DNA from: Streptomyces sp. NBC_01717
GTDB taxonomy: Bacteria > Actinomycetota > Actinomycetes > Streptomycetales > Streptomycetaceae
Assembly: GCF_036248255.1 (NCBI RefSeq)
Contig: NZ_CP109178.1
Location: 2,604,001 to 2,668,000, forward strand
Direction: 5' to 3'
Length of the DNA: 64,000 nucleotides
Numbering within the stretch: the stretch's first letter is position 1; each line of letters starts with the position of its first letter. The notes beneath the pieces are model-generated. The model did not search any database. It worked only from the letters and a program-made list of their open reading frames with translations, and had not been told where the DNA came from. Of this stretch, positions 3,285 to 20,677 are shown piece after piece. A program made the translations under genes and the position numbers.

Positions 3285-3892
3285 CCGGTGTCTCCTCGGT
3301 TCGCGTCCGCGGCAGGGGCTTCGGTACGGGCTTCGGCGTAGTCCTGCGGGTCGGCGCCCAGCACGTCGTGCCAGAGGTCTCCGCCGGCGTCCCGGCCGCG
3401 GGCCTGGAGGGCGCGGTCGGCGCGGAGCCGGGCCCGGAGGCGTTTGCGTTCCTCCCGGTACCGGGCGCGTTCCTCCGCCGTGCGTTCGGACGCGGACCGG
3501 TACTGCTCGCGCAGTTCGTCCCGCTCCCCCAGCACCTCGGCGCGCAGCGCGATACGCCGGTCCTCCAGGTCGTCGTGGACCTCGTCGGTACCGGTCAACT
3601 GGTGGCTGCGGTACGCCATCGCGAGGAGGAACGCCGTGGTGGCGAGCGTGATGACGATCGCGGTCAGAGCGATGGCCTGCGGCAGCGGGTCGGTGACCTG
3701 CCACAGCGGGACGCCGTACAGGAGGGGCGCCCTGCCCGCCGATCCCGTGGCGGACAGGACGAGCAGGTTGATGCCGTTGCCCGCGATCACCGCACCGAGC
3801 AGGATGCGGGTGAGGGGGCGGGTGAGCATGAGGATGCCGCCGACGGCACACAGCACGGCGGCCGTGGCCAGAAGAGAGGCGCTGACCGTCAT
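3281..3892 (-). CDS. mrpC: Mrp Na+/H+ antiporter subunit C with long C-terminal coiled-coil extension
   Basis: Residues 1-100 form the three-helix NuoK/MnhC domain. LLGAVIAGNGINLLVL carries the conserved helix-2 segment, and DPLPQAIALTAIVITLA is the MrpC/NuoK hallmark. MrpC proteins usually stop near residue 110-115. This one runs to 203 with an extremely charged tail (residues about 105-165, e.g. LGERDELREQYRSASERTAE) that should form a cytoplasmic coiled coil. The start is ATG 3892-3890, overlapping the mrpA stop. The role of the extension is unknown. Confidence 0.93.
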   Translation of the reverse strand: MTVSASLLATAAVLCAVGGILMLTRPLTRILLGAVIAGNGINLLVLSATGSAGRAPLLYGVPLWQVTDPLPQAIALTAIVITLATTAFLLAMAYRSHQLTGTDEVHDDLEDRRIALRAEVLGERDELREQYRSASERTAEERARYREERKRLRARLRADRALQARGRDAGGDLWHDVLGADPQDYAEARTEAPAADANRGDTG

Positions 3893-6873
3893 CCGGGTGC
3901 ACCTCCGGCCTCGGGCGCCGTGCCCGGTCCTGCTTCCGGATCGGGCTCGGCTCCCGGTCCCGCTTCCCCCGGGGGCGCCTTCTTCTCCCCCGCCGCGTTC
4001 TCCGCCGCGGCCTTCTCCGCGGCGGCCCGCTCGATCTGACGGTCGATCTTGGCTCCGAGTGCGCGCACGATGTCCAGCACCACGCCCAGCACCAGGAGGT
4101 ACACACCGAAGTCGAAGAGGACCGGCGTGCCCAGGTGGTACGGGCCGAACACGGGCAGCCGGCCGTGATATGTCCAGGCGTGCAGCACGGTTCCGTCGGC
4201 GAGGCCGAGCAGCGCCACTCCGGTGGAGATGAACAGCCCGAGGCCGGTGAAGAGCCCCGGCTGCAGCGGTGCGGCTTCGGCGAGTTCGAACCGGCCGCCC
4301 GCCAGATAGCGGGTGATCAGCCCGACACCGGCGACGAGTCCGGCGACGAACCCGCCGCCCGGCATGTTCTCGGCGCAGAACAGCAGGTAGACGGAGAGCA
4401 CCAGGATCGGATGGAACAGCAGCCGGGCCACGACCTCGAAGACGACCGACCGGTGTTCGGGGGCGAGCGTGGCGCCCGCCGCGAGCCAGCTCCGCTCGGG
4501 CGCGCCCTCGTCGCCGTGCGGAAGGCCGGTCAGTCCGCGCTCCGTCAGCGACCAGGCCGTACGCCCGGGGACCTCCTCGCGCAGCCCGGATCCGTCCGCC
4601 CGGCGGTGCAGATAGATCAGGCTGGTCACGCCGATCGCCGCGGCGGCGAGCACGGCGGACTCCCCCATCGTGTCCCAGGCCCGCAGGTCGACCAGGATGG
4701 TGGCGACCACGTCCTTGAGCCCGTGGTGCGCGGTCTCCTCGACCATGGCGGCCCCGGCGGGGTCGGCGGTACGTGCGGCCGCCGCGACCCACACCACCAC
4801 GCTCAAGGTGGCGGCCGCGGCCAGCGCCACAGGAATGCGTACCGCGCGCCGCCACGTACTGACCGACTCCTGGAAGTGCACCGGCATCCGCCGCAGCACC
4901 AGCACGAACACGACCATGGACACCGTCTCGACGCAGAACTGGGTGAGCGCCAGATCGGGGCCGCCCTGGACGACGAAGAGCAGCCCGGTGCCGTACCCCG
5001 TCAGCCCCGCCAGGACCACCGCCTTCATCCGGCGGCTGACGGTGAGGCAGAGAAGCGCGGCCGCGCAGGTCAGGACAGCCACGGCGCCCTGCAGCGGAAC
5101 GTCCCAGAGCCGCGGCGCCGAAGCCCCGTGCCACGGCCGGTCCACCCCCAGCACGGCGAGCTGTCCGGCGAGCATGACGAGCAGAGTGATGGCGAGATAG
5201 CCGGAGAGCGAGCCGCGCTGGACGAAGCCGGTGATCTCCAGCGAGGTCCGCTCCAGGCCGAGCAGCAGACGGCCGAAGACCCGGTCGGCGGTCGGCCAGG
5301 CGATCCGCCGGGAGAGCCGGGTCACGGTGGTACGCCCGGCGAAGAGCACCGCACCGCCGACCGTGGCGACGGCCGAGAGCAGCAGGGCGGTGCCGAACCC
5401 GTGCCAGAGCGCGAGGTGGTACGGATGCGCGGGTACGGGGAACTCGTCGGCGTACGCGCTGAGCAGCCGCTGGACCCGGCCGACGCCCGGCCCGAGCACC
5501 AGGCCGCAGAGCGCCAGCACGGCGGGCGGGGCGAGGAACGCCCAGCCGACCCGGTGCACCGGGGTGTCCTCGACGCCGGGTTTACGGGCGAACGCGCCCC
5601 AGACGAACCGTACGGCGTAGGCGACGGTCAGCGTCGAGCCCGCCACGGTGACGGCGAGCGCCCAGCGGTCCGCGGCGTCGCCGTGCAGCAGCGCGTCGAA
5701 CGCGGCCTCCTTCGCGGCGAATCCGAGCAGCGGGGGCAGTGCGGCCATGGACGCGGCGGCGAGCACGGCGACCGCGCAGACGTACGGCAGCGCCCGGCCG
5801 ACGCCCGAGAGTCTGCGCAGATCGCGGGTGCCCGCCGCATGGTCGACGATGCCGGTGACGAGGAACAGCGGTGCCTTGAACAGGGCGTGACTCAGAATCA
5901 TGACCGCGGCGGCGAGAGCGGCGTCGCGGTTGCCGATACCGGCGAGCAGGGTGAGGAAGCCGAGCTGGCTGACGGTACCGTAGGCGAGGACGAGCTTGAG
6001 GTCGTTCAGCCGAAGCGCCCGCCAGCCGCCGAGCAGCATGGTCGCTCCGCCGAGGACCAGGACGACGGGCCGCCATACGGGGACGTCGGCGAAGCCGGGC
6101 GCGAGGCGTGCCACCAGGTAGACACCGGCCTTGACCATGGCCGCGGCGTGCAGATAGGCGCTGACGGGGGTGGGGGCGGCCATGGCGTTCGGCAGCCAGA
6201 GGCTGAAGGGCCAGATCGCCGACTTCGACAGTGCTCCGCAAAGGATCAGAACCACGGCCACCGAGATGGCGAGGCTGGTGGCCGGCGGGTCGGCGACGAT
6301 CGCGGAGATCCGGTACGTGCCCGCCGCCTGACCGAGGATCAGGAAGCCGACAAGCATCGCCAGGCCGCCGAGCGTGGTCACGGTGAGCGCCTGGAGCGCG
6401 GAGCGGCGGCTGTGCTTCTGTTCGCTGCTGTACCCGATCAGCAGGTAGGAGAAGACTGTGGTCAGTTCCCAGAAGAGATAGAGCGTGATCAGGTCGTCGG
6501 CGAGGACCAGGCCGAGCATGGCACCCGCGAAGGCCAGCAGGTTCCCGGCGAAGCCGGCCAGTCGGGGGGCGTCGTCGGAGAAGTACGAGGCGCAGTACAG
6601 CAGGACGAGCGCGCCGATTCCGGCGGCGAGCAGCACCATGAGTTCGGCGAGCGCGTCGAGGCGCAGTTCGACGAAGACGTCGTACGCCGGCATCCACCGC
6701 CACGACCAGGTCACGGATCCGCCGGACGCCGCGGTGTTCCACTGCGTGGCCGCCCACACCGTGGCGGCCGCGGGCGGCAGCGCGAGCACGACGAACGCGC
6801 GGCTGCCGAGGCGCCGTACCAGCGGGGCCGCGCACGCGGCGAGGACGAAGTGGCAGACGATGAGCGCTGTCAT
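3889..6873 (-). CDS. mrpA: Mrp Na+/H+ antiporter subunit A fused to MrpB domain
   Basis: The product has 994 residues and is the first gene of the operon. Residues 1 to about 500 are the NuoL-like ion-translocating module: E136 lies in LYLFWELTTVFSYLL, and the membrane Lys/His region reads SHALFKAPLFLVTGIVDHA. Further helices and an MbhE-like part follow. An MrpB-type domain (LFHPILVLSVYLLFCAENMPG) lies near residues 830-950, so no separate mrpB is needed. The C-terminus ends in an Ala/Glu/Pro-rich low-complexity tail. The complex exports Na+ in exchange for H+ and supports alkaline pH and salt tolerance. Confidence 0.95.
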   Translation of the reverse strand: MTALIVCHFVLAACAAPLVRRLGSRAFVVLALPPAAATVWAATQWNTAASGGSVTWSWRWMPAYDVFVELRLDALAELMVLLAAGIGALVLLYCASYFSDDAPRLAGFAGNLLAFAGAMLGLVLADDLITLYLFWELTTVFSYLLIGYSSEQKHSRRSALQALTVTTLGGLAMLVGFLILGQAAGTYRISAIVADPPATSLAISVAVVLILCGALSKSAIWPFSLWLPNAMAAPTPVSAYLHAAAMVKAGVYLVARLAPGFADVPVWRPVVLVLGGATMLLGGWRALRLNDLKLVLAYGTVSQLGFLTLLAGIGNRDAALAAAVMILSHALFKAPLFLVTGIVDHAAGTRDLRRLSGVGRALPYVCAVAVLAAASMAALPPLLGFAAKEAAFDALLHGDAADRWALAVTVAGSTLTVAYAVRFVWGAFARKPGVEDTPVHRVGWAFLAPPAVLALCGLVLGPGVGRVQRLLSAYADEFPVPAHPYHLALWHGFGTALLLSAVATVGGAVLFAGRTTVTRLSRRIAWPTADRVFGRLLLGLERTSLEITGFVQRGSLSGYLAITLLVMLAGQLAVLGVDRPWHGASAPRLWDVPLQGAVAVLTCAAALLCLTVSRRMKAVVLAGLTGYGTGLLFVVQGGPDLALTQFCVETVSMVVFVLVLRRMPVHFQESVSTWRRAVRIPVALAAAATLSVVVWVAAAARTADPAGAAMVEETAHHGLKDVVATILVDLRAWDTMGESAVLAAAAIGVTSLIYLHRRADGSGLREEVPGRTAWSLTERGLTGLPHGDEGAPERSWLAAGATLAPEHRSVVFEVVARLLFHPILVLSVYLLFCAENMPGGGFVAGLVAGVGLITRYLAGGRFELAEAAPLQPGLFTGLGLFISTGVALLGLADGTVLHAWTYHGRLPVFGPYHLGTPVLFDFGVYLLVLGVVLDIVRALGAKIDRQIERAAAEKAAAENAAGEKKAPPGEAGPGAEPDPEAGPGTAPEAGGAPG

Positions 6874-7208: not shown

Positions 7209-7610
7209 TCACGGCAGTACGGCCATCCCGTCGAGCTCCACGAGAGCCTGTTCGTCCCAGAGCCGGGCCACCCCGACGACCGCCATCGCCGGGTAGTCGC
7301 GGCCCGCCAACCGCCGCCAGATCAGACCGAGTTCGGGGGCATGAGCGCGGTAGTCGGCGACGTCGGTGGCGTAGACGGTGACCCGGGCCAGATCGGCCGG
7401 GGAGCCACCGGCCGCGCGCAGTGCGACGAGCAGATTGGTGAGGGCCGTCGTGAACTGTTCGGGCAGTGTGTCGCCGATGACCTTGCCGTTCCGGTCAAGA
7501 GCCGTCTGCCCGGCCAGGAAGACCAGTTGACTGCCGGTGGCCGTGACGGCGTGCGAGAAGCCTGTGGGCGGGGACAGCTCGGCGGGATTGATTCGGTGGA
7601 TCGGACTCAT
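7209..7610 (-). CDS. RidA (YjgF/YER057c/UK114) family enamine/imine deaminase
   Basis: The product has 133 residues and starts at ATG 7610-7608, overlapping the acyl-CoA dehydrogenase stop by 4 bases. Features include the RidA-type strand segment LVFLAGQTALDRNGKVIG, the helix EQFTTALTNLLVALRAAGGSPADLARVTVYATD, read here as separate pieces of the RidA fold, and the C-terminal VVGVARLWDEQALVELDGMAV. RidA proteins hydrolyse reactive enamines/imines to ketones and ammonia. Its place in an aryl-CoA operon suggests a role on an amino-substituted ring intermediate. Specificity cannot be read from sequence. Confidence 0.88.
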   Translation of the reverse strand: MSPIHRINPAELSPPTGFSHAVTATGSQLVFLAGQTALDRNGKVIGDTLPEQFTTALTNLLVALRAAGGSPADLARVTVYATDVADYRAHAPELGLIWRRLAGRDYPAMAVVGVARLWDEQALVELDGMAVLP

Positions 7611-8767
7611 GCGGACGGCTCCTGGTTCCCGGACGGCTCCTGCTGCGCGGTCGGCGCCGTCGCGTACAGCTCCTTGGCGATGATCGTGCGCTGGACCTCG
7701 CTGGCCCCCTCGTAGATCCGCGGGGCGCGCACCTCCCGGTAGAGGTGTTCGAGCAGATGACCGCGCCGCAGCGCACGGGCGCCGTGCAGCTGGACGGCGG
7801 CGTCGACGACGTACTGCGCCGCCTCCGTGGCGTACAGCTTCGCCATCGCCGCTCTGCGCGGAACCCCCGGTTCCCCCGCGTCGTACGCCGCCGCGGCCGC
7901 GTACACCAGGAGCCGGGCGGCCTCGGTGCGGGTGGCCATTTCGGCGACCTGGTGCGAGACGGCCTGCAGATCCTTGAGTGGGCCGCCGAACGCGGTGCGT
8001 TGCGCGGTGTGGGCCAAGGTCGCGTCGAGGGCCGCGCGGGCCATGCCGACGGCGAAGGCGCCGACGCTGGGACGGAACAGGTTGAGGGTGTTCATGGCGA
8101 CCCGGAAGCCGCGGCCGGGTTCGCCGAGTACGTCGTCCGGGGTGACCGGCACCTCGTCGAAGGTCAGCGCGCCGATGGGGTGCGGGGAGAGCATGTCGAG
8201 CGCTGTGCCGGTCAGCCCCGGGCGGTCGGCGGGGACCAGGAACGCGGTGACGCCGCGGGCTCCGGCGCCGGGCGTCGTGCGGGCGAAGACGGTGTAGAAG
8301 TCGGCCTCGGGGGCGTTTGAGATCCAGCACTTCTCGCCGGTCAGCCGCCAGCCGTCCCGGGCGTGCGCCGCGCTGAGGGCGAGGGCCGCCGCGTCGGAGC
8401 CGGCGCCGGGCTCGCTGAGCGCGAAGGCTGCGACCGCGCGGCCCGCGCGGACTTCGGGGAGCCAGCGTTCACGGTGGGCCGGGGTACCCGCCTGGACCAA
8501 TGGGTACGAGCCGAGTCCTTGGAGGGCCAGCGCGGTCTCGGCCTCCGTGCAGCCGCGGGCCAGGGACTCGCGCAGCAGACAGAGGTCGAGGGCTCCGGAG
8601 GAGAACAGCCGGTCGAGCAGGCCCAGTTCACCGAGGGCGGCGACGAGTGCGCGGTTGACGTGACCCGGTTCGCCCTTCTCTGCGAGGGGGCGCAACTGCT
8701 GCTCGGCCAGGGCGCGCAGCTCCTCGCACCAGGCGGTCTGTGACGGATCGAGCGAGAATGCCGACAT
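7607..8767 (-). CDS. Acyl-CoA dehydrogenase family flavoenzyme
   Basis: The product has 386 residues. ATG 8767-8765 follows AGGAGAG at good spacing; an upstream in-frame extension lacks a ribosome site. Family motifs are FALSEPGAGSDAAAL (FAD/acyl binding), LTGEKCWISNAPEAD, and near the C-terminus QLHGARALRRGHLLEHLYRE followed by YEGASEVQRTIIAKEL. The Glu of YEGAS occupies the catalytic-base position of many family members. The enzyme introduces an alpha-beta double bond into an acyl-CoA using FAD. It is expressed divergently from the aryl-CoA ligase and together with RidA, so a cyclic acyl-CoA substrate is plausible. Confidence 0.9.
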   Translation of the reverse strand: MSAFSLDPSQTAWCEELRALAEQQLRPLAEKGEPGHVNRALVAALGELGLLDRLFSSGALDLCLLRESLARGCTEAETALALQGLGSYPLVQAGTPAHRERWLPEVRAGRAVAAFALSEPGAGSDAAALALSAAHARDGWRLTGEKCWISNAPEADFYTVFARTTPGAGARGVTAFLVPADRPGLTGTALDMLSPHPIGALTFDEVPVTPDDVLGEPGRGFRVAMNTLNLFRPSVGAFAVGMARAALDATLAHTAQRTAFGGPLKDLQAVSHQVAEMATRTEAARLLVYAAAAAYDAGEPGVPRRAAMAKLYATEAAQYVVDAAVQLHGARALRRGHLLEHLYREVRAPRIYEGASEVQRTIIAKELYATAPTAQQEPSGNQEPSA

Positions 8768-8786
8768 ACCGGCGCCTCTCCTGGAT

Positions 8787-8826
8787 CGTATCGCGAAGTA
8801 TTGACTACCGTCATTCAAACGATACG
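8787..8826. promoter_or_regulatory. Inverted-repeat operator in the divergent promoter of the aromatic locus
   Basis: The perfect 7-bp arms CGTATCG (8787-8793) and CGATACG (8820-8826) are separated by 26 bp. They sit in the 88-bp gap between the divergent acyl-CoA dehydrogenase and ligase genes. TTGACT at 8801-8806 could be a -35 for the plus strand, with TACGCT (8823-8828) as a weak -10. The nearby PaaX-family gene is the obvious candidate regulator; binding is inferred. Confidence 0.5.
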
Positions 8827-8855
8827 CTCCAAGGGCGACAAGGGGGCGATCCGTT

Positions 8856-10481
8856 ATGGACCCGAAGACCTCAGCGCACATCGACAGCTTTGCCAGAGAG
8901 CATCTGCCACCCCAGGACCAGTGGCCGGAACTGGTCTTCGGTCTCCCCGAGCTGGACTATCCGGACCGGCTGAACTGCGCCGCCGAACTCCTCGACACCA
9001 CGGTCGCCCGTCTCGGACCCGACCGCCCCGCCTTCCGTACCCCTGACGGCCCGACGTGGAGCTACGGCGAGCTCCAGGACCGGGTCGACCGGATCGCCCA
9101 TGTCCTGACCTCCGATCTGGGGGTCGTCCCCGGCAACCGGGTCCTGCTGCGCGGCCCCACCACCCCCCATTTGGCCGCCTGCTGGCTCGCCGTGCTGAAG
9201 GCGGGCGCGATCGCCGTGACCGTACTGGCACAGCAGCGATCCCAGGAGATCGCCACCATCTGCTCGATGGCCCGCGTCGGCCATGCGCTGTGCGATGTCC
9301 GGTCGGTCGACGATCTGGTGAAGGCTCAGGTGCCGGGGCTGCGGATCACCGCGTACGGAGGGGACGGGGCGGACGATCTGCTGCGGCTGGCCGAGCTCCG
9401 GCCGGGGCCGTACCCGGCTGTGGACACCGCCGCGGACGATGTCGCGCTGATCGCGTTCACCTCGGGCACCACCGGGCGTCCCAAAGGCTGCATGCACTTC
9501 CACCGCGATCTGCTGGCCATCGCCGACACCTTCTCGCGCCACGTCCTGCGGCCGGGCCCCGAGGACGTGTTCGCGGGCAGTCCACCGCTCGGCTTCACCT
9601 TCGGGCTCGGCGGCCTGGTGGTCTTCCCGCTGCGAGCCGGCGGTTCGGCGCTGCTGCTGGAACAGGCCGGTCCGCGGCAGCTGCTGCCCGCGCTGGCCAC
9701 CCACCGCGTCTCGGTCCTGTTCACCGCCCCGACCGCGTATCGCGTGATGCTCGACCATCTCGGCGAGCACGATCTGTCCGCGCTGCGCCGCTGCGTCTCG
9801 GCGGGCGAGAACCTGCCCGCGGCGACCTGGCACTCCTGGTACGAGCGGACCGGTCTGCGCATCATCAACGGCATAGGCGCCACCGAACTGCTGCACATCT
9901 TCATCTCCGCCGCCGACGACGCGATCCGCCCCGGCACCACCGGGGTTGCGGTGCCCGGCTGGCAGGCGCGCGTGCTGGACCGGGACGGCCGCGCGGTGCC
10001 CGACGGGGAGCCGGGGCTGCTCGCCGTACGCGGCCCGACGGGGTGCCGCTATCTCGCCGACGCACGTCAGACGGAATACGTGCAGCACGGCTGGAACCTC
10101 ACCGGCGACACGTACACCCGCGACAGCGACGGCTACTTCCACTACGTCGCACGCGCCGACGACATGATCATCTCCTCCGGCTACAACATCGCGGGCCCCG
10201 AGGTCGAGGACGCCCTGCTGCGCCATCCCCAGGTCGCGGAAGCAGCGGTGGTCGGCCGGCCGGACGAGCTGCGCGGCCAGGTCGTGGTGGCGTACGTAGT
10301 GCCTCGCGAGGGCGCCGCACCGTCGGCCGACGACCTGCGCACGTACATGAAGGGCGAACTGGCGCCGCACAAGTGCCCGCGCGTCATCGAGTTCCTGCCC
10401 GCTCTCCCCCGGACCGCCACGGGCAAGCTGCAGCGGTTCCGGCTGCGTAGCGAGGCGGACCGGAGCCAGGCCCTAGAGTGA
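8856..10481 (+). CDS. Aryl/acyl-CoA ligase (ANL family; 2-aminobenzoate- or benzoate-CoA ligase-like)
   Basis: This 541-residue adenylate-forming enzyme shows the full motif set: FTSGTTGRPKG (A3 P-loop, residue about 200), NGIGATE (A5), YVARADDMIISSGYNI (A8 hinge) and PRTATGKLQR with the catalytic Lys (A10). The spacing GSPPLGFTFGLGG and the N-terminal PPQDQWPEL resemble benzoate/2-aminobenzoate-CoA ligases. ATG 8856 follows a G-rich ribosome site (AGGGGG). The enzyme would activate an aromatic acid with ATP and CoA, the entry step of the pathway encoded around it. Exact substrate is inferred from context only. Confidence 0.88.
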   Translation: MDPKTSAHIDSFAREHLPPQDQWPELVFGLPELDYPDRLNCAAELLDTTVARLGPDRPAFRTPDGPTWSYGELQDRVDRIAHVLTSDLGVVPGNRVLLRGPTTPHLAACWLAVLKAGAIAVTVLAQQRSQEIATICSMARVGHALCDVRSVDDLVKAQVPGLRITAYGGDGADDLLRLAELRPGPYPAVDTAADDVALIAFTSGTTGRPKGCMHFHRDLLAIADTFSRHVLRPGPEDVFAGSPPLGFTFGLGGLVVFPLRAGGSALLLEQAGPRQLLPALATHRVSVLFTAPTAYRVMLDHLGEHDLSALRRCVSAGENLPAATWHSWYERTGLRIINGIGATELLHIFISAADDAIRPGTTGVAVPGWQARVLDRDGRAVPDGEPGLLAVRGPTGCRYLADARQTEYVQHGWNLTGDTYTRDSDGYFHYVARADDMIISSGYNIAGPEVEDALLRHPQVAEAAVVGRPDELRGQVVVAYVVPREGAAPSADDLRTYMKGELAPHKCPRVIEFLPALPRTATGKLQRFRLRSEADRSQALE

Positions 10482-10485
10482 TCAC

Positions 10486-11313
10486 GTGGCCGACCTGCAC
10501 ACCCCCCGATCCCTGATCGTCACCCTCTACGGTGCGTACGGTCGCACCCCCGGCGACACACCGCTGCCGGTGGCCGAGCTGATCCGGTTGCTGAACGCCG
10601 TCGGTGTCGACGCCCCGTCGGTGCGCTCCTCGGTCTCCCGGCTGAAGCGGCGCGGGCTGCTCGTACCGGCGCGGACCGCGAACGGCGCGGCCGGATACGC
10701 GCTGTCGCAGGACGCCCGCCAGCTGCTGGACGACGGCGACCGGCGGATCTACGCACATCCGTCACCACCGCTGCGGGACGGCTGGGTGCTCGCCGTCTTC
10801 TCCGTACCGGAAGCGGAGCGGCACAAGCGGCACCTGCTGCGCTCCCGGCTCTCCCGACTGGGCTTCGGCACGGCCGCGCCAGGGGTCTGGATCGCACCCG
10901 CCGCACTGTACGACGAGACCCGGCACACCCTGGAGCGGCTGGAACTCGCCCCGTACGTGGACCTGTTCCGCGGGGAACACCTCGGCTTCGCCGCCACGCG
11001 GGAGTCGGTGGCGCGCTGGTGGGACCTGGAGGCCATCGCCCGGCTCCACCTGGACTTCCTGGCCCAGCACGAACCGGTGCTGCGGGCCTGGGAATCGCGT
11101 ACCGGGGAGCCGGACGCGGAGGCCGCCTACCGGGACTATCTGACCGCCCTGGACTCCTGGCGGCGGCTGCCGTACACCGATCCGGGGCTGCCGGAGGAGC
11201 TGCTGCCGAAGGACTGGCCGGGGGGCCGGGCGGCGGAGGTGTTCGGGCTGCTGCACGCCCGGTTGCGGGACGCGGGGGCGGAGTTCGTCCGAGGCGGGCC
11301 GGGCGGCTCGTAA
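10486..11313 (+). CDS. PaaX-family transcriptional regulator
   Basis: The product has 275 residues and starts at GTG 10486, four bases after the ligase stop. The N-terminal winged helix includes PRSLIVTLYGAYGR and VDAPSVRSSVSRLKRRGLLVPA. The middle reads HPSPPLRDGWVLAVFSVPEAERHKRHLLRSRL, in pieces typical of PaaX. The C-terminal domain contains LVARWWDLE-like sequence. PaaX proteins repress aromatic CoA-pathway genes and respond to aryl-CoA thioesters. Co-transcription with the ligase supports autoregulation of the divergent promoter. Confidence 0.88.
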   Translation: MADLHTPRSLIVTLYGAYGRTPGDTPLPVAELIRLLNAVGVDAPSVRSSVSRLKRRGLLVPARTANGAAGYALSQDARQLLDDGDRRIYAHPSPPLRDGWVLAVFSVPEAERHKRHLLRSRLSRLGFGTAAPGVWIAPAALYDETRHTLERLELAPYVDLFRGEHLGFAATRESVARWWDLEAIARLHLDFLAQHEPVLRAWESRTGEPDAEAAYRDYLTALDSWRRLPYTDPGLPEELLPKDWPGGRAAEVFGLLHARLRDAGAEFVRGGPGGS

Positions 11314-11353
11314 AGCGTGTGCACAGCCCGGTCCCGACTGGTCATCATGGACC

Positions 11354-12175
11354 ATGACCTGGACCTTCACTGACGACGTCGATGTGTTCCTGGACACCGC
11401 CGGTGCGTGGCTTGCGACCCGGCCCGCCGAGAACACTCTCGTACTGACCATCACCGCGACCCTGCGCAGCAGCGGCCCGCATGCGTACGGCGGGGACGCC
11501 CCGGTGCTGGGCTGGTGGCGCGGACCGGACGGCGAGGTCGCGGGGACCCTGGTGCAGACCCCGCCGTACCGGCCGCTGCTCGGCGTCGTCGCCCCGGAGG
11601 CCGTCGGTCCGCTGGCCGCCGCGTTCCCGCTGACCGCCGTCAACGCAGACCGGGCCACCGCCGAGGCGCTGGCCGCGGGGTGGCCCGGCCACCAGGTCGA
11701 AGAGGTACAACGGCTGTACCTTCTGGACGAGTTGGTCCCGCCCTCCCCCGCGCCGCCGGGCGGTCCCAGGTCCGCCACGGCCGCCGACCGGGCCCTGCTG
11801 GTGGCCTGGCATCGCGCGTTCGCCGCGGACGTCGGCCAGCCTGACGCCCACGCCGAGCGGATGGTCGACGAGCGGACGGCGTCCGGCGATCTGACGCTCT
11901 GGGAGACCGGCGGGGTCCCGGTGTCGATGGCGGGTGTCTCCCCGCGAGTCGCCGGCGCGGTGCGGGTGACGGCCGTGTACACGCCACCCGAGCACCGGGG
12001 CCACGGGTACGCGGCGGCGGTGACGGCCGAGGTCAGCCGGGCGGCGCGGGAAGCGGGCGCGCAGGAGGTGCTGCTTTTCACGGATCTCGCCAACCCGACG
12101 AGCAACGGGGTCTACCAGCGCATCGGCTACCGGCCGGTCTCGGACCGGCTGTTGATCACTGCGGAGTCGACGTGA
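11354..12175 (+). CDS. GNAT family N-acetyltransferase
   Basis: The product has 273 residues. The C-terminal half (about 150-270) has the GNAT core. VRVTAVYTPPEHRGHGYAAAVTAEVSRAAR holds the acetyl-CoA P-loop (residues RGHGYA), followed by EVLLFTDLANPTSNGVYQRIGYRPV, where NxxYxxIGY is a family hallmark. The N-terminal half is a degenerate second GNAT-like domain. Substrate is unknown. The stop overlaps the start of the next gene by 4 bases, so the two are probably translated together. Confidence 0.85.
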   Translation: MTWTFTDDVDVFLDTAGAWLATRPAENTLVLTITATLRSSGPHAYGGDAPVLGWWRGPDGEVAGTLVQTPPYRPLLGVVAPEAVGPLAAAFPLTAVNADRATAEALAAGWPGHQVEEVQRLYLLDELVPPSPAPPGGPRSATAADRALLVAWHRAFAADVGQPDAHAERMVDERTASGDLTLWETGGVPVSMAGVSPRVAGAVRVTAVYTPPEHRGHGYAAAVTAEVSRAAREAGAQEVLLFTDLANPTSNGVYQRIGYRPVSDRLLITAEST

Positions 12176-12642
12176 CGGGCGGGGCCGAGAAGGCGCCGCT
12201 GGAATCGGGCTGGCTGATCGCCGCGAATGTGGTGCGGTGGCGACGGTACGGGGAGGGCGGGCAGGAGCTGCGGCCGGGCACCAAGTCCTACCGGGGAGGC
12301 TCGAAAGTGCATGTGATCGACACCTACGCGGGGACGGGCCACGAGACGCTGACCACGATCGGACGCGCGCGCCACACCGGCAGGTACATCACGATCGACA
12401 TGGCGACGCGCAATCTGCACACGTTTCGGGCCGTGCCGGTCTACAGCCCGACCGTGCTGCGGCTCTGCGCGGAGGCGGAAGTGGGCGGCTGCTGGGACTC
12501 CCGGGAGGACGCAGAGCAGCTCGCCGCCCGGCTCGGACGTCTGGCGGCCGAGTACCGCGGGTCCTGGTGGGACGGCGCGCCCCATCCCGTCCCCTGCCGC
12601 TGCCACGACTGCTTGACGGGCGGGGCGCTCACCCCAGCGTGA
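12172..12642 (+). CDS. Conserved hypothetical protein
   Basis: The product has 156 residues and starts at ATG/GTG overlapping the GNAT stop (start read at 12172). No family is recognised with confidence. It contains SGWLIAANVVRWRRYGEGGQ near the start, a strand-rich middle (SKVHVIDTYAGTGHETLTTIG) and a C-terminal cluster PCRCHDCL with three Cys that could bind metal. It has no signal peptide or membrane segment. The 3' end overlaps the convergent monooxygenase gene by 14 bases. Confidence 0.7.
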   Translation: MTGGAEKAPLESGWLIAANVVRWRRYGEGGQELRPGTKSYRGGSKVHVIDTYAGTGHETLTTIGRARHTGRYITIDMATRNLHTFRAVPVYSPTVLRLCAEAEVGGCWDSREDAEQLAARLGRLAAEYRGSWWDGAPHPVPCRCHDCLTGGALTPA

Positions 12643-14911
12643 GCCGCGGCTTCGGTGCGTCCGTGCGGCCGGTCGGCGGTGTGCGGCTGCCCGCGCGGTA
12701 CGGAAGCGGCCAGGGCGCGCCCGGTCCGCCGTAGCCCTGGTCGGCCGCCGCGTGCAGGGTCCAGTGCGGGTCGTACAGATGCGGGCGGGCCAGGGCGCAC
12801 AGGTCGGCACGGCCTGCCAGCAGCAGCGAGTTGACGTCGTCCCAGGAGGAGATCGCACCGACCGCGATGACGGGCACGACCAGGGCGTTGCGGATCCGGT
12901 CGGCGAACGGGGTCTGGTACGAGCGGCCGTACTCGGGGTCTTCGTCCGGGACGACCTGGCCGGTGGAGACGTCGATGGCGTCGGCGCCGTGCGCGACGAA
13001 CGCGCGGGCGATCTCGACGGCGTCCTCGGCCGTCGTGCCGCCGGCGGCCCAGTCCGTGGCGGAGATGCGGACGGTCATGGGCCGGTCGTCGGGCCACCGG
13101 GCGCGGACCGCGTCGAAGACTTCGAGGGGGAAGCGGAGTCGGTTCGACAGCGGTCCGCCGTAGATGTCGGTGCGGTGGTTGGTGAGCGGGGAGAGGAACC
13201 CGGAGAGCAGATAGCCGTGGGCGCAGTGGAGTTCGAGCAGGTCGAAGTCGCAGGTGGCGGCGTGCCGGGCCGCTGCGGCGAACTGGTTGCGGATCACGTC
13301 GAGCCCGGCGCGGTCCAGCGCGTGCGGGACCTGGTTGACGCCTTCCCGGTACGGGACCGGGGAAGCGGCGGACAGCGGCCAGTTGCCCTCGTCGAGGGGC
13401 TGGTCGATGCCCTCCCACATCAGCTTGGTGGAGCCCTTGCGACCGGAGTGGCCGAGCTGGATGCCGATCGCCGTGCCGGGGGCGGAGGTATGGACGAAGT
13501 CGGTGATCCGGGTCCAGGCGGCGGCCTGTTCGGGGGTGTAGAGCCCGGTGCACCCGGGGGTGATCCGGCCCTCGGCGCTCACGCACACCATCTCTGTCAT
13601 GACGAGCCCGGCGCCGCCGAGGGCGCGGGCGCCCAGGTGGACGAGGTGGAGGTCACCGGGGACGCCGTCGACGGCCGAGTACATGTCCATCGGGGAGACG
13701 ACGACGCGGTTACGGAGTTCCAGGCCGCGCAGCCGCAGCGGGGTGAACATCGGCGGGGTGCCGGGGGCGCAGCCGAACTCCTCCTCGACGGCGGCGGTGA
13801 AGCCGGCGTCGCGCAGCCGCAGGTTGTCGTGGGTGACGCGGCGGCTGCGGGTCAGAAGGTTGAAGGCGAACTGGCGGGGCGCCTGGTCGACGTACGTACC
13901 CAGCTCCTCGAACCAGCGCAGGCTCGCTGCGGCGGCGCGCTGGGTGGAGGCGACGACGGGCCGCCGCTCGGCCTCGTACGCGGCGAGGGCTGCGGGCAGG
14001 TCCGGCTGCTCCTCGATGCAGGCGGCGAGCGCCAGGGCGTCCTCGACGGCGAGCTTGGTGCCGGACCCGATGGAGAAGTGGGCGGTGTGGGCGGCGTCGC
14101 CGATGAGAACCGTGTTGCCGTGCGACCAGTGGGCGTTGACGACGGTACGGAAGGTGAGCCAGGAGGAGTTGTTGGAGCGCAGCGGGCGGCCGCCGAGGGC
14201 GTCGGCGAAGATCTTGCCGCAGCGTTCCGTCGATGCTGCGGTGTCCATGGCGTCGAAACCGGCCGCGTGCCAGACCTCCTCGCGCATCTCGACGATGGCG
14301 GTGGAGGCACCGGCCGAGAAGGGGTAGGCGTGCAGCTGCATCACGCCGTGTTCGGTCTCGGCGATCTCGAAGCGGAAGGCGTCGAACGCGAAGTCCGTGG
14401 CGAGCCAGATGTAGCGGTTGCGGTGGGTGGTGACGGTGGGCCGGAAGGTGCCGGCGTACGTCTCACGGGTGGTGCTGTGCACGCCGTCGGCCGCGATCAC
14501 CAGGTCGTGCGTCGCGGCGAGCTCGGCGGCGGGCGGGGCCTCCGCGCGGAAGCGGAGCCGTACCCCGAGGGACGCGCAGCGCTTGTGCAGGATCTCCAGG
14601 AGCCGGCGGCGGCCCAGCGCCGAGAATCCGTGGCCGCCGGACGTCTGGGTCCGGCCGCGGTGGACGATGTCGATGTCGTCCCACCGTACGAATTCGGCCT
14701 GCAGCGCGCGGTACACCACGGGGTCGGCGTGTTCGATGCCTCCGAGCGTCTCGTCGGAGAGGACGACGCCGAAGCCGAATGTGTCGTCGGGGGCGTTACG
14801 CTCCCAGACGGTGACGGAGCGCTCGGGGTCCAGGCGCTTGAGGAGGGCCGCGGCGTACAGCCCGCCGGGGCCGCCGCCGATCACCGCGATCCGCCTCGTG
14901 TCGGAAGCCAT
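12629..14911 (-). CDS. Bifunctional aryl-CoA monooxygenase / OYE-type reductase (2-aminobenzoyl-CoA or salicylyl-CoA type)
   Basis: This 760-residue protein has two fused domains. Residues 1 to about 380 are a group A flavin monooxygenase: GGGPGGLYAA near residue 12 (FAD dinucleotide fold), DLVIAADGVHS (DG motif) and VLIGDAAHTAHFSIGSG (GD motif). Residues about 385-740 are an Old Yellow Enzyme-type reductase (RNRVVVSPMDMYS, GIQLGHSGRKGS, LLELHCAHGYLLSGFLSP, VIAVGAI). This architecture is known from 2-aminobenzoyl-CoA monooxygenase/reductase and from enzymes annotated as salicylyl-CoA 5-hydroxylase. It would hydroxylate, and possibly reduce, the ring of a CoA ester. Confidence 0.92.
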   Translation of the reverse strand: MASDTRRIAVIGGGPGGLYAAALLKRLDPERSVTVWERNAPDDTFGFGVVLSDETLGGIEHADPVVYRALQAEFVRWDDIDIVHRGRTQTSGGHGFSALGRRRLLEILHKRCASLGVRLRFRAEAPPAAELAATHDLVIAADGVHSTTRETYAGTFRPTVTTHRNRYIWLATDFAFDAFRFEIAETEHGVMQLHAYPFSAGASTAIVEMREEVWHAAGFDAMDTAASTERCGKIFADALGGRPLRSNNSSWLTFRTVVNAHWSHGNTVLIGDAAHTAHFSIGSGTKLAVEDALALAACIEEQPDLPAALAAYEAERRPVVASTQRAAAASLRWFEELGTYVDQAPRQFAFNLLTRSRRVTHDNLRLRDAGFTAAVEEEFGCAPGTPPMFTPLRLRGLELRNRVVVSPMDMYSAVDGVPGDLHLVHLGARALGGAGLVMTEMVCVSAEGRITPGCTGLYTPEQAAAWTRITDFVHTSAPGTAIGIQLGHSGRKGSTKLMWEGIDQPLDEGNWPLSAASPVPYREGVNQVPHALDRAGLDVIRNQFAAAARHAATCDFDLLELHCAHGYLLSGFLSPLTNHRTDIYGGPLSNRLRFPLEVFDAVRARWPDDRPMTVRISATDWAAGGTTAEDAVEIARAFVAHGADAIDVSTGQVVPDEDPEYGRSYQTPFADRIRNALVVPVIAVGAISSWDDVNSLLLAGRADLCALARPHLYDPHWTLHAAADQGYGGPGAPWPLPYRAGSRTPPTGRTDAPKPRLTLG

Positions 14912-14915
14912 GGCG

Positions 14916-15743
14916 CTACCTGCCCTGCCATTTCGGCGGGCGCTCCTCCGCGAACGCGGCGTGGAACTCGGCGTAGTCGTCGCCGTGCATCAACAGGGCC
15001 TGGGTGGCGGCGTCCATCTCCACGGCGGCGGCGAGCGGCATGTCGAGTTCGGCGGTGAGCAGCGCCTTGGTCTGGGCGAGGGCGAGGGCGGGGCCTTCGG
15101 CGAGGCGGCGGGCGAGCTCCGCGGCTCGGGCATCGGCCTGTCCCTCTTCGGCCAGCTCGCTGATCAGCCCGATCCGTTCCGCCTCGGGGGCGCGGACCGG
15201 CTCGCCGAGCATCAGCAGCCGGGTGGCATGGCCGAGGCCGACGACGCGCGGCAGCAGATAGGCCGCCCCCATGTCGCCGCCGGAGAGCCCGACCCGGGTG
15301 AAGAGGAAGGCGAACCGGGCGGACGGGTCGGCGACACGGAAGTCGGCGGCCAGCGCGAGGACCGCACCGGCGCCCGCGGCGACGCCGTGCACCGCGGCGA
15401 TGACGGGGAAGGGGCACTCGCGCAGCGCCCGCACGACCTGCCCGGTCATCCGGTTGAAGTCGAGCAGTTGCGCGGTGTCCATCGCGAGCGTGGCACCGAT
15501 GATCTCGTCGACATCGCCGCCGGAGCAGAAGCCGCGCCCCTCACCGGCCAGCACGAGAGCGCGCACGGAGCGTTCGCGGGACAGCTCGGCGAGGAGGTCG
15601 CGCAGGTCGGCGTAGGCGCCGAAGGTGAGCGCGTTGAGCTTCTCGGGGCGGGCCAGGGTGACGGTGGCGACGCCGTCGTCCGTCGTCAGCCGCAGATGGT
15701 GCCAGTCATCGGTACGGCGGGCGGAGCTGGGAAACGGGCTCAT
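14916..15743 (-). CDS. Enoyl-CoA hydratase/isomerase family protein
   Basis: The product has 275 residues with the crotonase core. LAGEGRGFCSGGD (first oxyanion-hole strand), HGVAAGAGAVLALAADFRVA (second oxyanion loop and helix) and FTRVGLSGGDMGAAYLLPRVVG are followed by the C-terminal helices RRLAEGPALALAQTKALL. The start is ATG 15743-15741. It lies 4 bases upstream of the bifunctional monooxygenase, so the two form an operon. A hydration or ring-opening-type step on a cyclic enoyl-CoA fits the neighbouring enzymes, but the precise reaction is inference. Confidence 0.9.
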   Translation of the reverse strand: MSPFPSSARRTDDWHHLRLTTDDGVATVTLARPEKLNALTFGAYADLRDLLAELSRERSVRALVLAGEGRGFCSGGDVDEIIGATLAMDTAQLLDFNRMTGQVVRALRECPFPVIAAVHGVAAGAGAVLALAADFRVADPSARFAFLFTRVGLSGGDMGAAYLLPRVVGLGHATRLLMLGEPVRAPEAERIGLISELAEEGQADARAAELARRLAEGPALALAQTKALLTAELDMPLAAAVEMDAATQALLMHGDDYAEFHAAFAEERPPKWQGR

Positions 15744-15801
15744 GGAGGGTGGTCCCCTTCAGCCGTCGGGCTGCTACCTGCTCTCGAAGTTATCACCCTT
15801 A

Positions 15802-15817
15802 CGTGACTTCCGTCACG
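15802..15817. promoter_or_regulatory. Inverted repeat between the enoyl-CoA hydratase and anti-sigma ATPase genes
   Basis: CGTGAC (15802-15807), ttcc, GTCACG (15812-15817) form a perfect dyad about 60 bases upstream of the hydratase start. It could be an operator for the hydratase-monooxygenase operon. Its arms differ from the dyad at 8787-8826, so a common regulator is not evident. Confidence 0.35.
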
Positions 15818-15996
15818 AGTACGCGATAGGTGCCGATCGGAATGTGGTGAACGTCCCTTTCGGACCGGACCGCAGCCCCTTGTCTGTGTCGTTGCGCTTC
15901 GTAAGGTTGAAAGGAAGAAGTCTTGAGCTCCAGAAACTCGAGCTCCGGACAGCCGTACCTCCGGAACGGAACCCCGTCTTGCCGCCCGATGGACCG

Positions 15997-16561: not shown

Positions 16562-18001
16562 TCAGTCCTCGTCCGCGCCGGCCAGCCGCGACCGGCTCCG
16601 GCTGTAGCCGGCGTACACCGCCGCGCCGACCACCAGGAACACCGCGAACTGCACCCAGGTCGCCCAGCCCGTCCCGTACATCAGATACAGGCAGAAGAGG
16701 ACACCCAGGATCGGGCTGAGCGGGTAGAGCGGCACCCGGAAGGAGCGCTTCAGCCCTGGGTTGCTGCGCCGCAACGCGATCACCGCGACATTGACCGCCA
16801 CCATGATGCCGAGCGTGCCGATGGTCGTCAGATTCACCACCACGTCGAGGGACGCGAAGGCTGCCGGCACGGCGAAGACGACGGCCACGATCCAGGTGTT
16901 GGCGACAGGCGTCGCCGTCCGCGGCGAGACACGTTCGAAGACCCGCGGGACCAGGCCGTCGCGGGACATCGACATCAGGATGCGGGTCTGCCCGTACATC
17001 ACCGCGAGCACGACCGACGCGATGGCTACGACCGCGCCGAACGCGATGATGCCGCCACCGACGGTCGAGCCGGTGACCTGGTCGACGATCAGCGAGAGCG
17101 CGGCCGGCTTGTCGGAGACGGCGTCCGCGCCGAGTGCGCCGATGGCCGTGAGGGCGACCGCGCAGTAGAGCAGGGTGGCGACCCCGAGGCAGATCAGGAT
17201 CGCGATCGGGATGTTCCGCCGGGGGTTCTTGACCTCTTCGCCCGCGGTGGTGATCGCGTCGAAGCCGATGTACGAGAAGAACGCCAGCGAGGCACCGGCG
17301 GTGACCCCGGCCGGACCATGGGTGGCGAACGGCGTGAGATTACCGGCCTCGAACGCGGTGAACGCGATGGCGCAGAAGGCGATCAGAATGCCGATCTTGA
17401 GGACCGCCATCGCGGCCGTGGCGCCCGCGCTCTCCCGGATGCCGCGCACCAGCAGGGTGGCGGCCATCATGATCACCACGATGGCGGGGAGGTTGATCAC
17501 ACCGCCGTCGCCGGGCCCGGCGGACAGGGCGGCGGGCAGGTGCCAGCCGACGAGGCTGTTCAGCAGTTCGTTGACGTACTGGCTCCAGCCGACCGCGACC
17601 GCGGAGACCGAGACGCCGTACTCCAGCAGCAGACACCAGCCGACGAGGAACGCGATGCGCTCGCCGAGAGTGGCGTAGGCGAAGGAGTACGAACTGCCGG
17701 AGACCGGGATCGCGCCGCCCAGCTCGGCGAAGGAGAACGCGGTGAAGATGCAGGTGATCGCAGCGAGAACGAAGGAGAGGACGACCGCGGGGCCGGCCTC
17801 GGCGACGGTGTCGGAGAGGCCGACGAAGATGCCGGTGCCGACGATGGCTCCTACGCCGAAGCACACGAGCTGGAACAGCCCCATGGTGCGCTTGAGGCCG
17901 TGCCCCTCCAGGTCGGCGCCGGATTCGGCGACCAGCTGGTCGGGGCTCTTGATGCGCAGGCCGGGCCGGGGCGACAGGCTCGGCAGGCGGAGCGGACTCA
18001 C
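16562..18001 (-). CDS. APC superfamily amino-acid permease (CAT/YfnA-like)
   Basis: From GTG 18001-17999 (preceded by GAAGAGA) the product has 479 residues with about twelve membrane helices. Helix 1 carries GVGAIVGTGIFVGLSD, the APC substrate-binding loop. SFAELGGAIPVSGSSYSFAYATLGE and FFSYIGFDAITTAGEEVKNPRRNIP are further hallmarks of the cationic amino-acid transporter branch. It lies downstream of arcB and arcA on the same strand, so arginine or ornithine is a reasonable substrate guess. It is not an ArcD-type antiporter. The last residues are a short Arg/Asp tail. Confidence 0.88.
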   Translation of the reverse strand: MSPLRLPSLSPRPGLRIKSPDQLVAESGADLEGHGLKRTMGLFQLVCFGVGAIVGTGIFVGLSDTVAEAGPAVVLSFVLAAITCIFTAFSFAELGGAIPVSGSSYSFAYATLGERIAFLVGWCLLLEYGVSVSAVAVGWSQYVNELLNSLVGWHLPAALSAGPGDGGVINLPAIVVIMMAATLLVRGIRESAGATAAMAVLKIGILIAFCAIAFTAFEAGNLTPFATHGPAGVTAGASLAFFSYIGFDAITTAGEEVKNPRRNIPIAILICLGVATLLYCAVALTAIGALGADAVSDKPAALSLIVDQVTGSTVGGGIIAFGAVVAIASVVLAVMYGQTRILMSMSRDGLVPRVFERVSPRTATPVANTWIVAVVFAVPAAFASLDVVVNLTTIGTLGIMVAVNVAVIALRRSNPGLKRSFRVPLYPLSPILGVLFCLYLMYGTGWATWVQFAVFLVVGAAVYAGYSRSRSRLAGADED

Positions 18002-18178
18002 GGGGCGATCTCTTCTCTGGTGGAGCATGTGGGGGGCTCGTGCGGACGGAGCGGGTGGGGGGCTCCGGTCCTCCGGTCCTGCGGGGGGACGGCACGAAAA
18101 TGGGGCTCGAGCGTGCGAGCTCGAACCCCACCAAGTGGAACCATGGTAGCCACTTCTTCGCATGTTCACCCAATCGGG

Positions 18179-18192
18179 CGCATGATCATGCG
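18179..18192. promoter_or_regulatory. Perfect 14-bp palindrome upstream of the permease gene
   Basis: CGCATGATCATGCG is self-complementary along its whole length. It lies 178 bases upstream of the permease start and 28 bases beyond the arcB stop codon. It may be an operator controlling the permease; no regulator gene is adjacent. Confidence 0.35.
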
Positions 18193-18219
18193 TTGCTCGG
18201 CGCCCCTGGCCGTGCCGGG

Positions 18220-19224
18220 TCAGGCACCGGCCAGTGTCGCCACCAGGACGGCCTTGATCGTGTGCATCCGGTTCTCGGCCTCGTCGAAGACGACCGAGTG
18301 TGCGGACTCGAAGACCTCGTCGGTGACTTCCAGCTCGGTCAGACCGTGGCTGTCGTGGATCTCGCGGCCGACCTTGGTCCCGAGGTCATGGAAGGCCGGA
18401 AGGCAGTGCAGGAACTTCACGTCGGCGTTGCCCGTGGCCTTCAGGACGTCCATGGTGACGGCGTACGGCGCGAGCGCCGCGATGCGCTCGTCCCAGACCT
18501 CCTTGGGCTCACCCATGGAGACCCAGACGTCGGTGGCGACGAAGTCGGCGCCCCGGACGCCCTCGGCGATGCCCTCGGTGAGAGTGACGGTCGCGCCGCT
18601 GGACTCGGCGAGCCGGCGGGCCTGCGCGACGATCTCCTCGGCCGGCCAGTAGGCCTTCGGAGCGACGATCCGGACGTCCATGCCCAGCAGCGCGCCCGTG
18701 ACCAGGTACGAGTTACCCATGTTGAAACGGGCGTCGCCGAGGTAGGCGAAGGCGATCCGCTCCAGCGGCTTGTCGCTGTGCTCGGTCATCGTGAGGACGT
18801 CGGCGAGCATCTGGGTCGGGTGCCAGTCGTCGGTGAGCCCGTTGAAGACAGGCACCCCACCGTACGCCGCCAGCTCCTCGACGGTCGCCTGGCTGTCACC
18901 GCGGTACTCGATGCCGTCGAACATCCGGCCCAGAACACGGGCGGTGTCCTTCACCGACTCCTTGTGGCCCATCTGGGAGCCCGTGGGGTCGAGATACGTC
19001 GTGGAGGCACCCTGGTCGGCGGCGGCGACCTCGAAGGCGCAGCGAGTACGGGTCGAGGTCTTCTCGAAGATCAGCGCGATGTTCCGACCGCGCAGCCGCT
19101 GCACCTCGGTGCCCGACTTCTTGGCCGTCTTGAGCTCGGCGGCCAGCTCGATCAGGCCGCGGAACTCCGCGGCCGTGAAGTCCAGCTCCTTGAGGAAGTG
19201 GCGGCCTGCGAGGTCTATCGCCAT
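18220..19224 (-). CDS. arcB: Ornithine carbamoyltransferase
   Basis: This 334-residue enzyme of the aspartate/ornithine transcarbamylase family has the carbamoyl-phosphate motif STRTR at 57-61. HPTQ lies near residue 135, the ornithine loop SMGE is in [10 protein letters not shown], and [10 protein letters not shown] near 274 holds the catalytic Cys. It interconverts citrulline + phosphate and ornithine + carbamoyl phosphate. The length and immediate linkage to arginine deiminase argue for the catabolic (ArcB) role. The biosynthetic argF/argI role cannot be excluded from sequence alone. Confidence 0.93.
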
Positions 19225-19273
19225 GGTGGCTGCTCCTGGGTCGGGCGAGGGTCGCGCGTACAGTCCTGGAAGT

Positions 19274-19299
19274 CTATACGAGACAACGCATCGCTATAC
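19274..19299. promoter_or_regulatory. Direct repeat CTATAC in the arcB upstream region
   Basis: CTATAC occurs at 19274-19279 and 19294-19299, exactly 20 bp apart and so on the same helix face, 50-75 bases upstream of arcB. On the minus strand the copies read GTATAG and could overlap a -10 element. This may be an arginine-responsive regulator site; the sequence does not match a classical ARG box well. Confidence 0.3.
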
Positions 19300-19376
19300 A
19301 GCCCCTGTGCTGCGTGTCCGCGCGATCCACCGTGTATCCGGTCGGCCCCCGCGTCTTCCGTACGGGTGCGCCCCGG

Positions 19377-20609: not shown

Positions 20610-20677
20610 GCCTCCATCCTCACCGCGCGGAGCGCCGTTCACCCGGCGAATCGCCACCTGCCTCTTCGTCTTCGGGA

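Follow-up and report, generated by a model that had tools for sequence, protein, structure and literature searches.

The window analysed here, a 64,000-nucleotide stretch on one contig of the 10.2 Mb genome of Streptomyces sp. NBC_01717 (NZ_CP109178.1, positions 2604001-2668000), carries a cluster of eight genes at 7209-15743 (Table 1) that most likely serves to degrade anthranilate (2-aminobenzoate), a product of tryptophan breakdown, as its coenzyme A (CoA) thioester. An earlier note on this DNA had described an aryl-CoA ligase, a flavin monooxygenase fused to an old yellow enzyme (OYE)-type reductase, an acyl-CoA dehydrogenase, an enoyl-CoA hydratase, a Rid-family protein and a PaaX-type regulator over this span, and all of them were found there as open reading frames matching the corresponding families in Pfam and NCBIfam scans. 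Two genes absent from that list, encoding a GNAT acetyltransferase and a small protein, also lie inside the cluster. By strand and spacing the genes fall into three transcription units. On the minus strand, the crotonase-fold gene is followed by the fusion gene and, separately, the dehydrogenase gene is followed by the Rid gene, whose ATG overlaps the stop codon of the dehydrogenase gene. The plus-strand unit starts with the ligase gene, divergent from the dehydrogenase gene, and continues with the PaaX-type gene and then the GNAT and small-protein genes. The Pfam scan of the dehydrogenase covered 7607-8764, which excludes the start codon, and its ATG at 8767 was taken from the sequence.

Table 1. 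Genes and operator-like sites of the cluster, in order along the window.
Feature	Position	Strand	Features noted
Rid-family protein, 133 aa, Met-type	7209..7610	-	PF01042; Met at the Arg105 site, Glu120 retained; putative enamine deaminase
Acyl-CoA dehydrogenase family protein	7607..8767	-	PF00441, PF02770, PF02771
Operator-like palindrome TATC-N9-TGAC-N4-GTCA-N7-GATA	8789..8824	.	dehydrogenase/ligase intergenic region (genes divergent)
AMP-forming aryl-CoA ligase, predicted 2-aminobenzoate-CoA ligase	8856..10481	+	PDB 4wv3 match; identity to pAL1 ligase
PaaX-type repressor (putative)	10486..11313	+	PF07848, PF20803, PF08223
GNAT acetyltransferase, variable passenger	11354..12175	+	PF00583
Small protein, variable passenger	12172..12642	+	no Pfam or NCBIfam match
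2-aminobenzoyl-CoA monooxygenase/reductase-like fusion (FAD monooxygenase and OYE-type reductase)	12629..14911	-	NF006101, 1215.9 bits
Crotonase-fold protein; proposed ring-cleaving or isomerising step	14916..15743	-	NF006107, 395 bits (cut-off 330)
Operator-like palindrome TATC-N9-TGAC-N4-GTCA-N9-GATA	15791..15828	.	upstream of the crotonase-fold gene

The best 80 Streptomyces loci were collected with the fusion protein as query, and their neighbouring genes were searched by tblastn. The order of the crotonase-fold, fusion, ligase, dehydrogenase and Rid genes was kept across these loci wherever the contig extended. The synteny search suggested in the earlier note thus showed the core genes recurring, and the gene set is not a chance grouping. 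In nine of the loci the contig ends before the place of the Rid gene; of the remaining 71, all but one (70) have it. The GNAT and small-protein genes were detected only in some of the 80 loci, and PaaX was not picked up in five (L001, L003, L006, L007 and L046). The window protein was placed among Streptomyces sequences in both the fusion and the ligase trees and, although the window genome holds nine matches to NF006101, only the window copy spans the full family.

The top match of the ligase in the Protein Data Bank (PDB) was the anthranilate-CoA ligase 4wv3, with benzoate-CoA ligases close behind. It was also 54% identical to the AMP-binding protein encoded next to the fusion gene on plasmid pAL1 of Arthrobacter Rue61a. 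From its position before the fusion gene, the pAL1 ligase compared here should be ARUE_113p00220, which conferred anthranilate-CoA ligase activity when expressed in E. coli (PMC3534580). According to the same source, anthranilate supported growth of Rue61a, whereas salicylate and gentisate did not. In the midpoint-rooted ligase tree, the window ligase grouped with proteobacterial clusters.

Furthermore, a supply of anthranilate was apparent from the genomic context. In the window genome a kynureninase gene adjoins a tryptophan 2,3-dioxygenase gene about 1.9 Mb from the cluster, and kynureninase exceeded its cut-off in 144 of the 150 Streptomyces genomes searched. Among 19 plasmid loci, chosen for spread from 95 records with one place covering 80% of the query, tryptophan dioxygenase and/or kynureninase lay near the fusion gene in six (L119, L120, L122, L126, L127 and L133). 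A quinolone dioxygenase was found beside it in another (L123), and one locus (L118) is the quinaldine plasmid pAL1 itself. A second fusion copy in one Streptomyces genome (L216) had both kynurenine genes in its surroundings. The earlier note had remarked on a missing gentisate 1,2-dioxygenase, and this holds genome-wide: a TIGR02272 search of the whole 10.2 Mb gave no match at E<=1e-3. Hence, the 2-aminobenzoate substrate favoured there was supported by the ligase homology, the kynurenine-pathway neighbours, the lack of a gentisate dioxygenase match and the separate clade of gentisate-linked paralogues described below.

The fusion enzyme is a single protein of 760 residues with PF01494 at 8-324 and PF00724 at 388-722; its score is well over the NF006101 cut-off of 1078 bits, and it was 61% identical to the pAL1 fusion. 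The reductase site was intact, with His562, His565 and Tyr567 aligned to the HGAHGY motif of 5ocs, and we take these residues to correspond to H191, N194 and Y196 of OYE1. In OYE enzymes, the residues of this site hold the substrate carbonyl and donate a proton.

A fusion over the NF006101 cut-off was found in 133 of the 150 Streptomyces genomes, and 61 of the 150 had some match to gentisate dioxygenase, none of them over its cut-off. When the two lists were compared by eye, at least 12 fusion copies among the matches listed had a gentisate dioxygenase match no more than 2 kb away; 11 of these scored 1030-1109 bits and the other (G250), a cut gene, 849 bits. Four of the 12 passed the family cut-off (1097-1109 bits) and eight fell short. 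A profile of the cluster Rids detected no Rid gene near any of them (18 kb searched per locus), which indicated that the Rid gene tracks the amino substrate. A related ligase was present in 11 of the 12 loci, FAH in 11 and PaaX in nine. The 11 full-length gentisate-linked fusions formed one clade (SH-aLRT support 100, by a quick tree method) next to the Rid-bearing fusions of the two cluster types, A and B, distinguished below.

Twelve positions cleanly separated 44 Rid-side from 11 gentisate-side fusions, and 11 of them lie in the reductase domain, His562 and Tyr567 included. The His-His-Tyr site was kept in all 115 window-side sequences, a set in which species may overlap (80 Streptomyces loci, the window, 13 loci from other genomes of the phylum, 19 plasmid loci and two copies in one genome). 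It was kept in none of the 12 gentisate-linked fusions (QHH in 10, HHH in one and QHQ in one), the Tyr being gone in every case. Given this difference, the window fusion should dearomatise the ring and leave an enamine. The simplest reading is that it would reduce the ring as the Azoarcus enzyme does, whereas the gentisate-linked enzyme would only hydroxylate it. This split of the reductase site between anthranilate and salicylate types looks new and would separate two functions under one NCBI family name. Since the window protein passes the NF006101 cut-off while eight of the 12 gentisate-linked paralogues fall below it, the name "bifunctional salicylyl-CoA 5-hydroxylase/oxidoreductase" looks misapplied to window-type fusions. 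It is probably wrong for many proteins, because 133 of the 150 Streptomyces genomes carry a fusion over the cut-off. For the same reason, anthranilate breakdown by the CoA route may be a near-core trait of Streptomyces.

The Rid protein scored 64.1 bits against PF01042 (gathering cut-off 27.3), but only 42.3 bits against TIGR00004, whose cut-off is 106.25. At the site of the catalytic Arg105, a Met was present in all 87 aligned cluster Rids (70 from Streptomyces, 16 from plasmid loci and that of the window), and Glu120 was likewise kept in 87 of 87. With the Rid of Sulfitobacter plasmid pSG53 (L147), the Met was found in 88 of 88 cluster homologues. It was also present in all 14 genomes of the phylum with a fusion over the cut-off, the window genome included, and the Glu did not vary in these either. 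Five of the seven other Rid paralogues of the window genome were alignable and none had Met (one gap at the site, one alignment one residue off), and it was also absent from the 17 Rids of lower score that were sampled in other genomes. A structure model of the Rid, built from 18 close relatives, had a mean predicted local distance difference test value (pLDDT) of 64, with the last 20 residues below 50, and was set aside unused. Thus, the RidA of the earlier note is a member of the PF01042 family, but its score is below the TIGR00004 cut-off and its catalytic Arg is replaced by Met. Since the arginine needed by the tested Rid deaminases is missing, it should not be regarded as an ordinary RidA enamine/imine deaminase. 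The detoxification of 2-aminoacrylate, as carried out by ordinary RidA, was rejected as its main role on account of the absent arginine and of the tracking of the fusion by the gene. As a separate observation, pSG53 carries a second Rid gene adjoining the fusion (L131, 3692-4033), with Arg at the site, besides the Met-type one.

To quantify the association between Rid and fusion, a set of 198 genomes from the phylum was used. In 28 of them the fusion was matched at 535 bits or more (14 over the cut-off, 12 at 751-912 bits and two partial), and each of these also had a cluster-type Rid scoring 109 bits or more. In the 170 genomes without such a fusion, a Rid of at least 94 bits was found in two, one of which (G178) has it on a 5 kb contig together with a ligase and a dehydrogenase. 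Rid and fusion lay within 10 kb on one contig in 21 of the 28 genomes and on different contigs in seven. Fisher's test gave 4.9e-32, a value to be read with the relatedness of the genomes and the choice of thresholds after the scores were seen in mind. Additionally, two types of cluster could be distinguished. Type A, to which the window belongs, has the crotonase-fold and dehydrogenase genes, and type B (L118, L120-L124, L134 and L216) has mostly FAH, cupin and thioesterase genes instead. The ligase, the fusion and the Rid are common to both; therefore, the shared Rid should act on the product of the fusion.

Building on the observed gene content, conservation, residues, co-occurrence and operator-like sites, an aerobic CoA-thioester route for anthranilate is proposed, with deamination by the Met-type Rid, ring opening by the crotonase-fold protein and PaaX-type control; taken as a whole, we hold this explanation to be fairly probable. 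The ligase would convert anthranilate to 2-aminobenzoyl-CoA, a step taken, like a C7H8O4-CoA intermediate, from the literature on homologues. The fusion would oxygenate C5 and reduce the ring to give 2-amino-5-oxocyclohex-1-ene-1-carbonyl-CoA. The Met-type Rid would hydrolyse the enamine at C2, releasing ammonia and leaving the 2,5-dioxo compound. Next, the crotonase-fold protein would open the ring between C1 and C2, giving 4-oxopimeloyl-CoA if this assignment is right, and the acyl-CoA dehydrogenase would feed the product into beta-oxidation.

The identity of the crotonase-fold protein was examined in its family and structural matches. It is close to PDB 3g64, a "putative enoyl-CoA hydratase" (503 bits over 275 residues), which may gain a function from the context of the anthranilate cluster, and the family NF006107 is named just "enoyl-CoA hydratase family protein". 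In the alignment it has an aspartate in common with the PaaG-type isomerase 4fzw, and both hydratase glutamates are, going by numbering, presumably absent. As for the intermediates, a CoA ester of C7H8O4 was formed by Rue61a only on anthranilate, possibly a cyclohexanedione-carboxyl-CoA according to its authors (PMC3534580), and this fits the deaminated dione. The authors named no deaminating enzyme, and the word deaminase is absent from their text.

The ring-deaminating step suggested in the earlier note gains support from the position of the Rid gene and its co-occurrence with the fusion, but the protein is without the arginine needed by the tested Rid deaminases; on balance, it would probably remove the amino group despite the missing residue. 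In our reading, the arginine of RidA serves to bind 2-aminoacrylate by its free carboxylate, a group that is missing from a CoA thioester. There is about an even chance that the Met-type Rids form a new subfamily acting on the CoA-bound enamine 2-amino-5-oxocyclohex-1-enecarbonyl-CoA. Its arginine would have been lost as the carboxyl group was thioesterified, and in the salicylate branch the Rid gene would have disappeared along with the reductase site once the substrate had no amino group.

Several observations weigh against the proposed route or qualify it. The RutC variant R104A was inactive, and the tested Rid deaminases depend on the arginine (PMC8113886, PMC4433059). In the parts of these two sources drawn on here, the arginine-less subfamilies Rid4-7 had no demonstrated deaminase activity, and Y3550, a further Rid without the arginine, did not serve as a RidA deaminase (PMC7221256, excerpt). 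The co-occurrence counts are phylogenetically non-independent and their bit thresholds were picked post hoc. One Streptomyces locus (L053), the sole one of the 71, had no nearby Rid gene; the cluster-like Rid of that genome consists of two overlapping matches (L222 and L224) far from the cluster, one with an internal stop. Among the plasmid loci, L135 had no Rid nearby and only weaker ones (about 60 bits) on its plasmid record, the only record searched, and L130 was cut by the record end. A deeper sister clade of fusions from other actinobacteria (L102-L113) keeps a genomic Rid, yet its reductase site is altered in eight of 12; the residue at the Arg105 site is I, V, T, L, K, S or M, with Met in two of 14 genomes and never Arg. 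These two features suggest that this clade may do other chemistry. The type B ligases, including that of Rue61a, grouped with the gentisate-linked ones in the tree, so that the ligase clade alone leaves the substrate unfixed. Moreover, Rue61a on anthranilate, and solely on it, also made a C7H7NO3-CoA, and loss of pAL1 did not abolish its growth on anthranilate (PMC3534580). The C7H7NO3-CoA is presumably the aromatic hydroxyanthraniloyl-CoA, and hence not all flux need pass through the enamine. The hydrolysis of the enamine may also be spontaneous or take place in another enzyme.

This last point leads to the alternative that the anthranilate route is right but the Rid is not a catalytic deaminase, the enamine being hydrolysed spontaneously or during the step of the crotonase or of the dehydrogenase, with the Rid only binding or quenching a side product. 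The missing Arg105 and the lack of demonstrated activity in arginine-less Rids speak for it, as does the growth still allowed by a Rut pathway without RutC (PMC8113886). Nevertheless, the Rid gene is tightly linked to the amino-type fusion and absent from all 12 gentisate-linked loci, and the invariant Met and Glu of the 87 cluster Rids suggest a pocket under selection. We therefore regard a non-catalytic Rid as rather unlikely, while giving it real weight. A further alternative is that the pathway serves a substituted or different 2-amino aromatic acid, which might derive from a secondary metabolite, and that anthranilate is turned over only on the side. The GNAT and small-protein genes are unexplained, and the ligases of Rue61a, homologous to that of the window, may also form benzoyl-CoA (PMC3534580). 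The prevalence of the fusion and of kynureninase in Streptomyces fits a common housekeeping substrate better, and such an acid seems very improbable. The same low standing was given to a salicylate route in which the fusion, as its NCBI family name and its score over the cut-off would have it, is a salicylyl-CoA 5-hydroxylase leading to gentisate. This route was rejected in view of the genome without a gentisate dioxygenase match, the distinct paralogue clade that does adjoin this gene, with no nearby Rid and a changed reductase site, and the growth pattern of Rue61a, which has homologous genes.

The regulation of the cluster was analyzed through the PaaX-type protein and the two palindromes. 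The protein carries the N-terminal, middle and C-terminal PaaX domains, and its score of 144.4 bits against TIGR02277, the PaaX of the phenylacetate operon, did not reach the cut-off of 264.55. In both promoter regions a TGAC-N4-GTCA core is flanked by TATC and GATA arms. Counting the window, 78 of the 80 regions preceding the crotonase-fold gene and 72 of the 74 between the dehydrogenase and ligase genes contained the core, compared with means of 0.25 and 0.05 regions, respectively, in 20 mononucleotide shuffles. Genome-wide, the left-arm pattern occurred just at the two cluster places (three matches, one site being matched on both strands), a uniqueness that is descriptive, as the pattern was derived from these sites. 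A scan with the sigma-70 consensus found no promoter- or terminator-like site. We infer that the PaaX-type protein binds the palindromes and, as a repressor, would control the divergent units through them.

The pathway itself is known from Azoarcus and Arthrobacter, and it is the Met-type Rid variant that looks new. Compared by description, the cluster of Azoarcus evansii has in common with that of the window a ligase, a fusion of monooxygenase and OYE-type reductase, and genes for beta-oxidation; the window cluster differs in its PaaX-type regulator and in having no 3-hydroxyacyl-CoA dehydrogenase gene. The regulator of the Azoarcus cluster is said to be of the MarR type, and the abstract of Schuhle et al. 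2001 on Azoarcus reportedly mentions a "putative translation inhibitor protein", as Rid-family members were formerly called. The Azoarcus 2-aminobenzoyl-CoA pathway is summarised in PMC4539516. The pAL1 cluster of Rue61a (NC_009453) has, besides the ligase and the fusion, a Met-type Rid 50% identical to that of the window and PaaX regulators, but FAH, cupin and thioesterase genes in place of the crotonase-fold and acyl-CoA dehydrogenase genes. The gentisate-linked fusions of Streptomyces are alike in architecture, often with a related ligase and PaaX, and differ in the Rid, the Tyr, the adjoining dioxygenase match and FAH. The 3-aminoacrylate deaminase RutC and the 2-aminomuconate deaminase AmnE also hydrolyse enamines within catabolic pathways as Rid-family members; their substrates are free acids and RutC needs Arg104, whereas the window Rid has Met and its proposed substrate is a CoA thioester. 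Rid genes have been predicted in benzoate regulons of Betaproteobacteria, and not in an anthranilate-CoA pathway in the part of PMC6449761 drawn on here. Titles and abstract openings of the literature likewise gave no Rid role in this pathway.

Arginine-less Rid subfamilies have been described as mysterious (PMC4433059), and at this locus a clade of that kind can be placed in a defined pathway, with a candidate for its substrate. If the proposed deamination is true, the Met-type Rid would become the first one without the arginine to have a deaminase role, and a missing step of the aerobic anthranilate pathway would be filled. An intact reductase Tyr with a Rid neighbour is proposed as a marker of anthranilate clusters, and the loss of the Tyr with a gentisate dioxygenase as a marker of salicylate clusters.

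Outside the cluster, judging from translations only, the frames downstream of the Rid gene (window positions 1626-6873) resemble a multi-subunit Na+/H+ antiporter operon. On the other side, adjoining the cluster at 16562-20747, an amino acid permease, an ornithine carbamoyltransferase and an arginine deiminase were apparent, again from translations.

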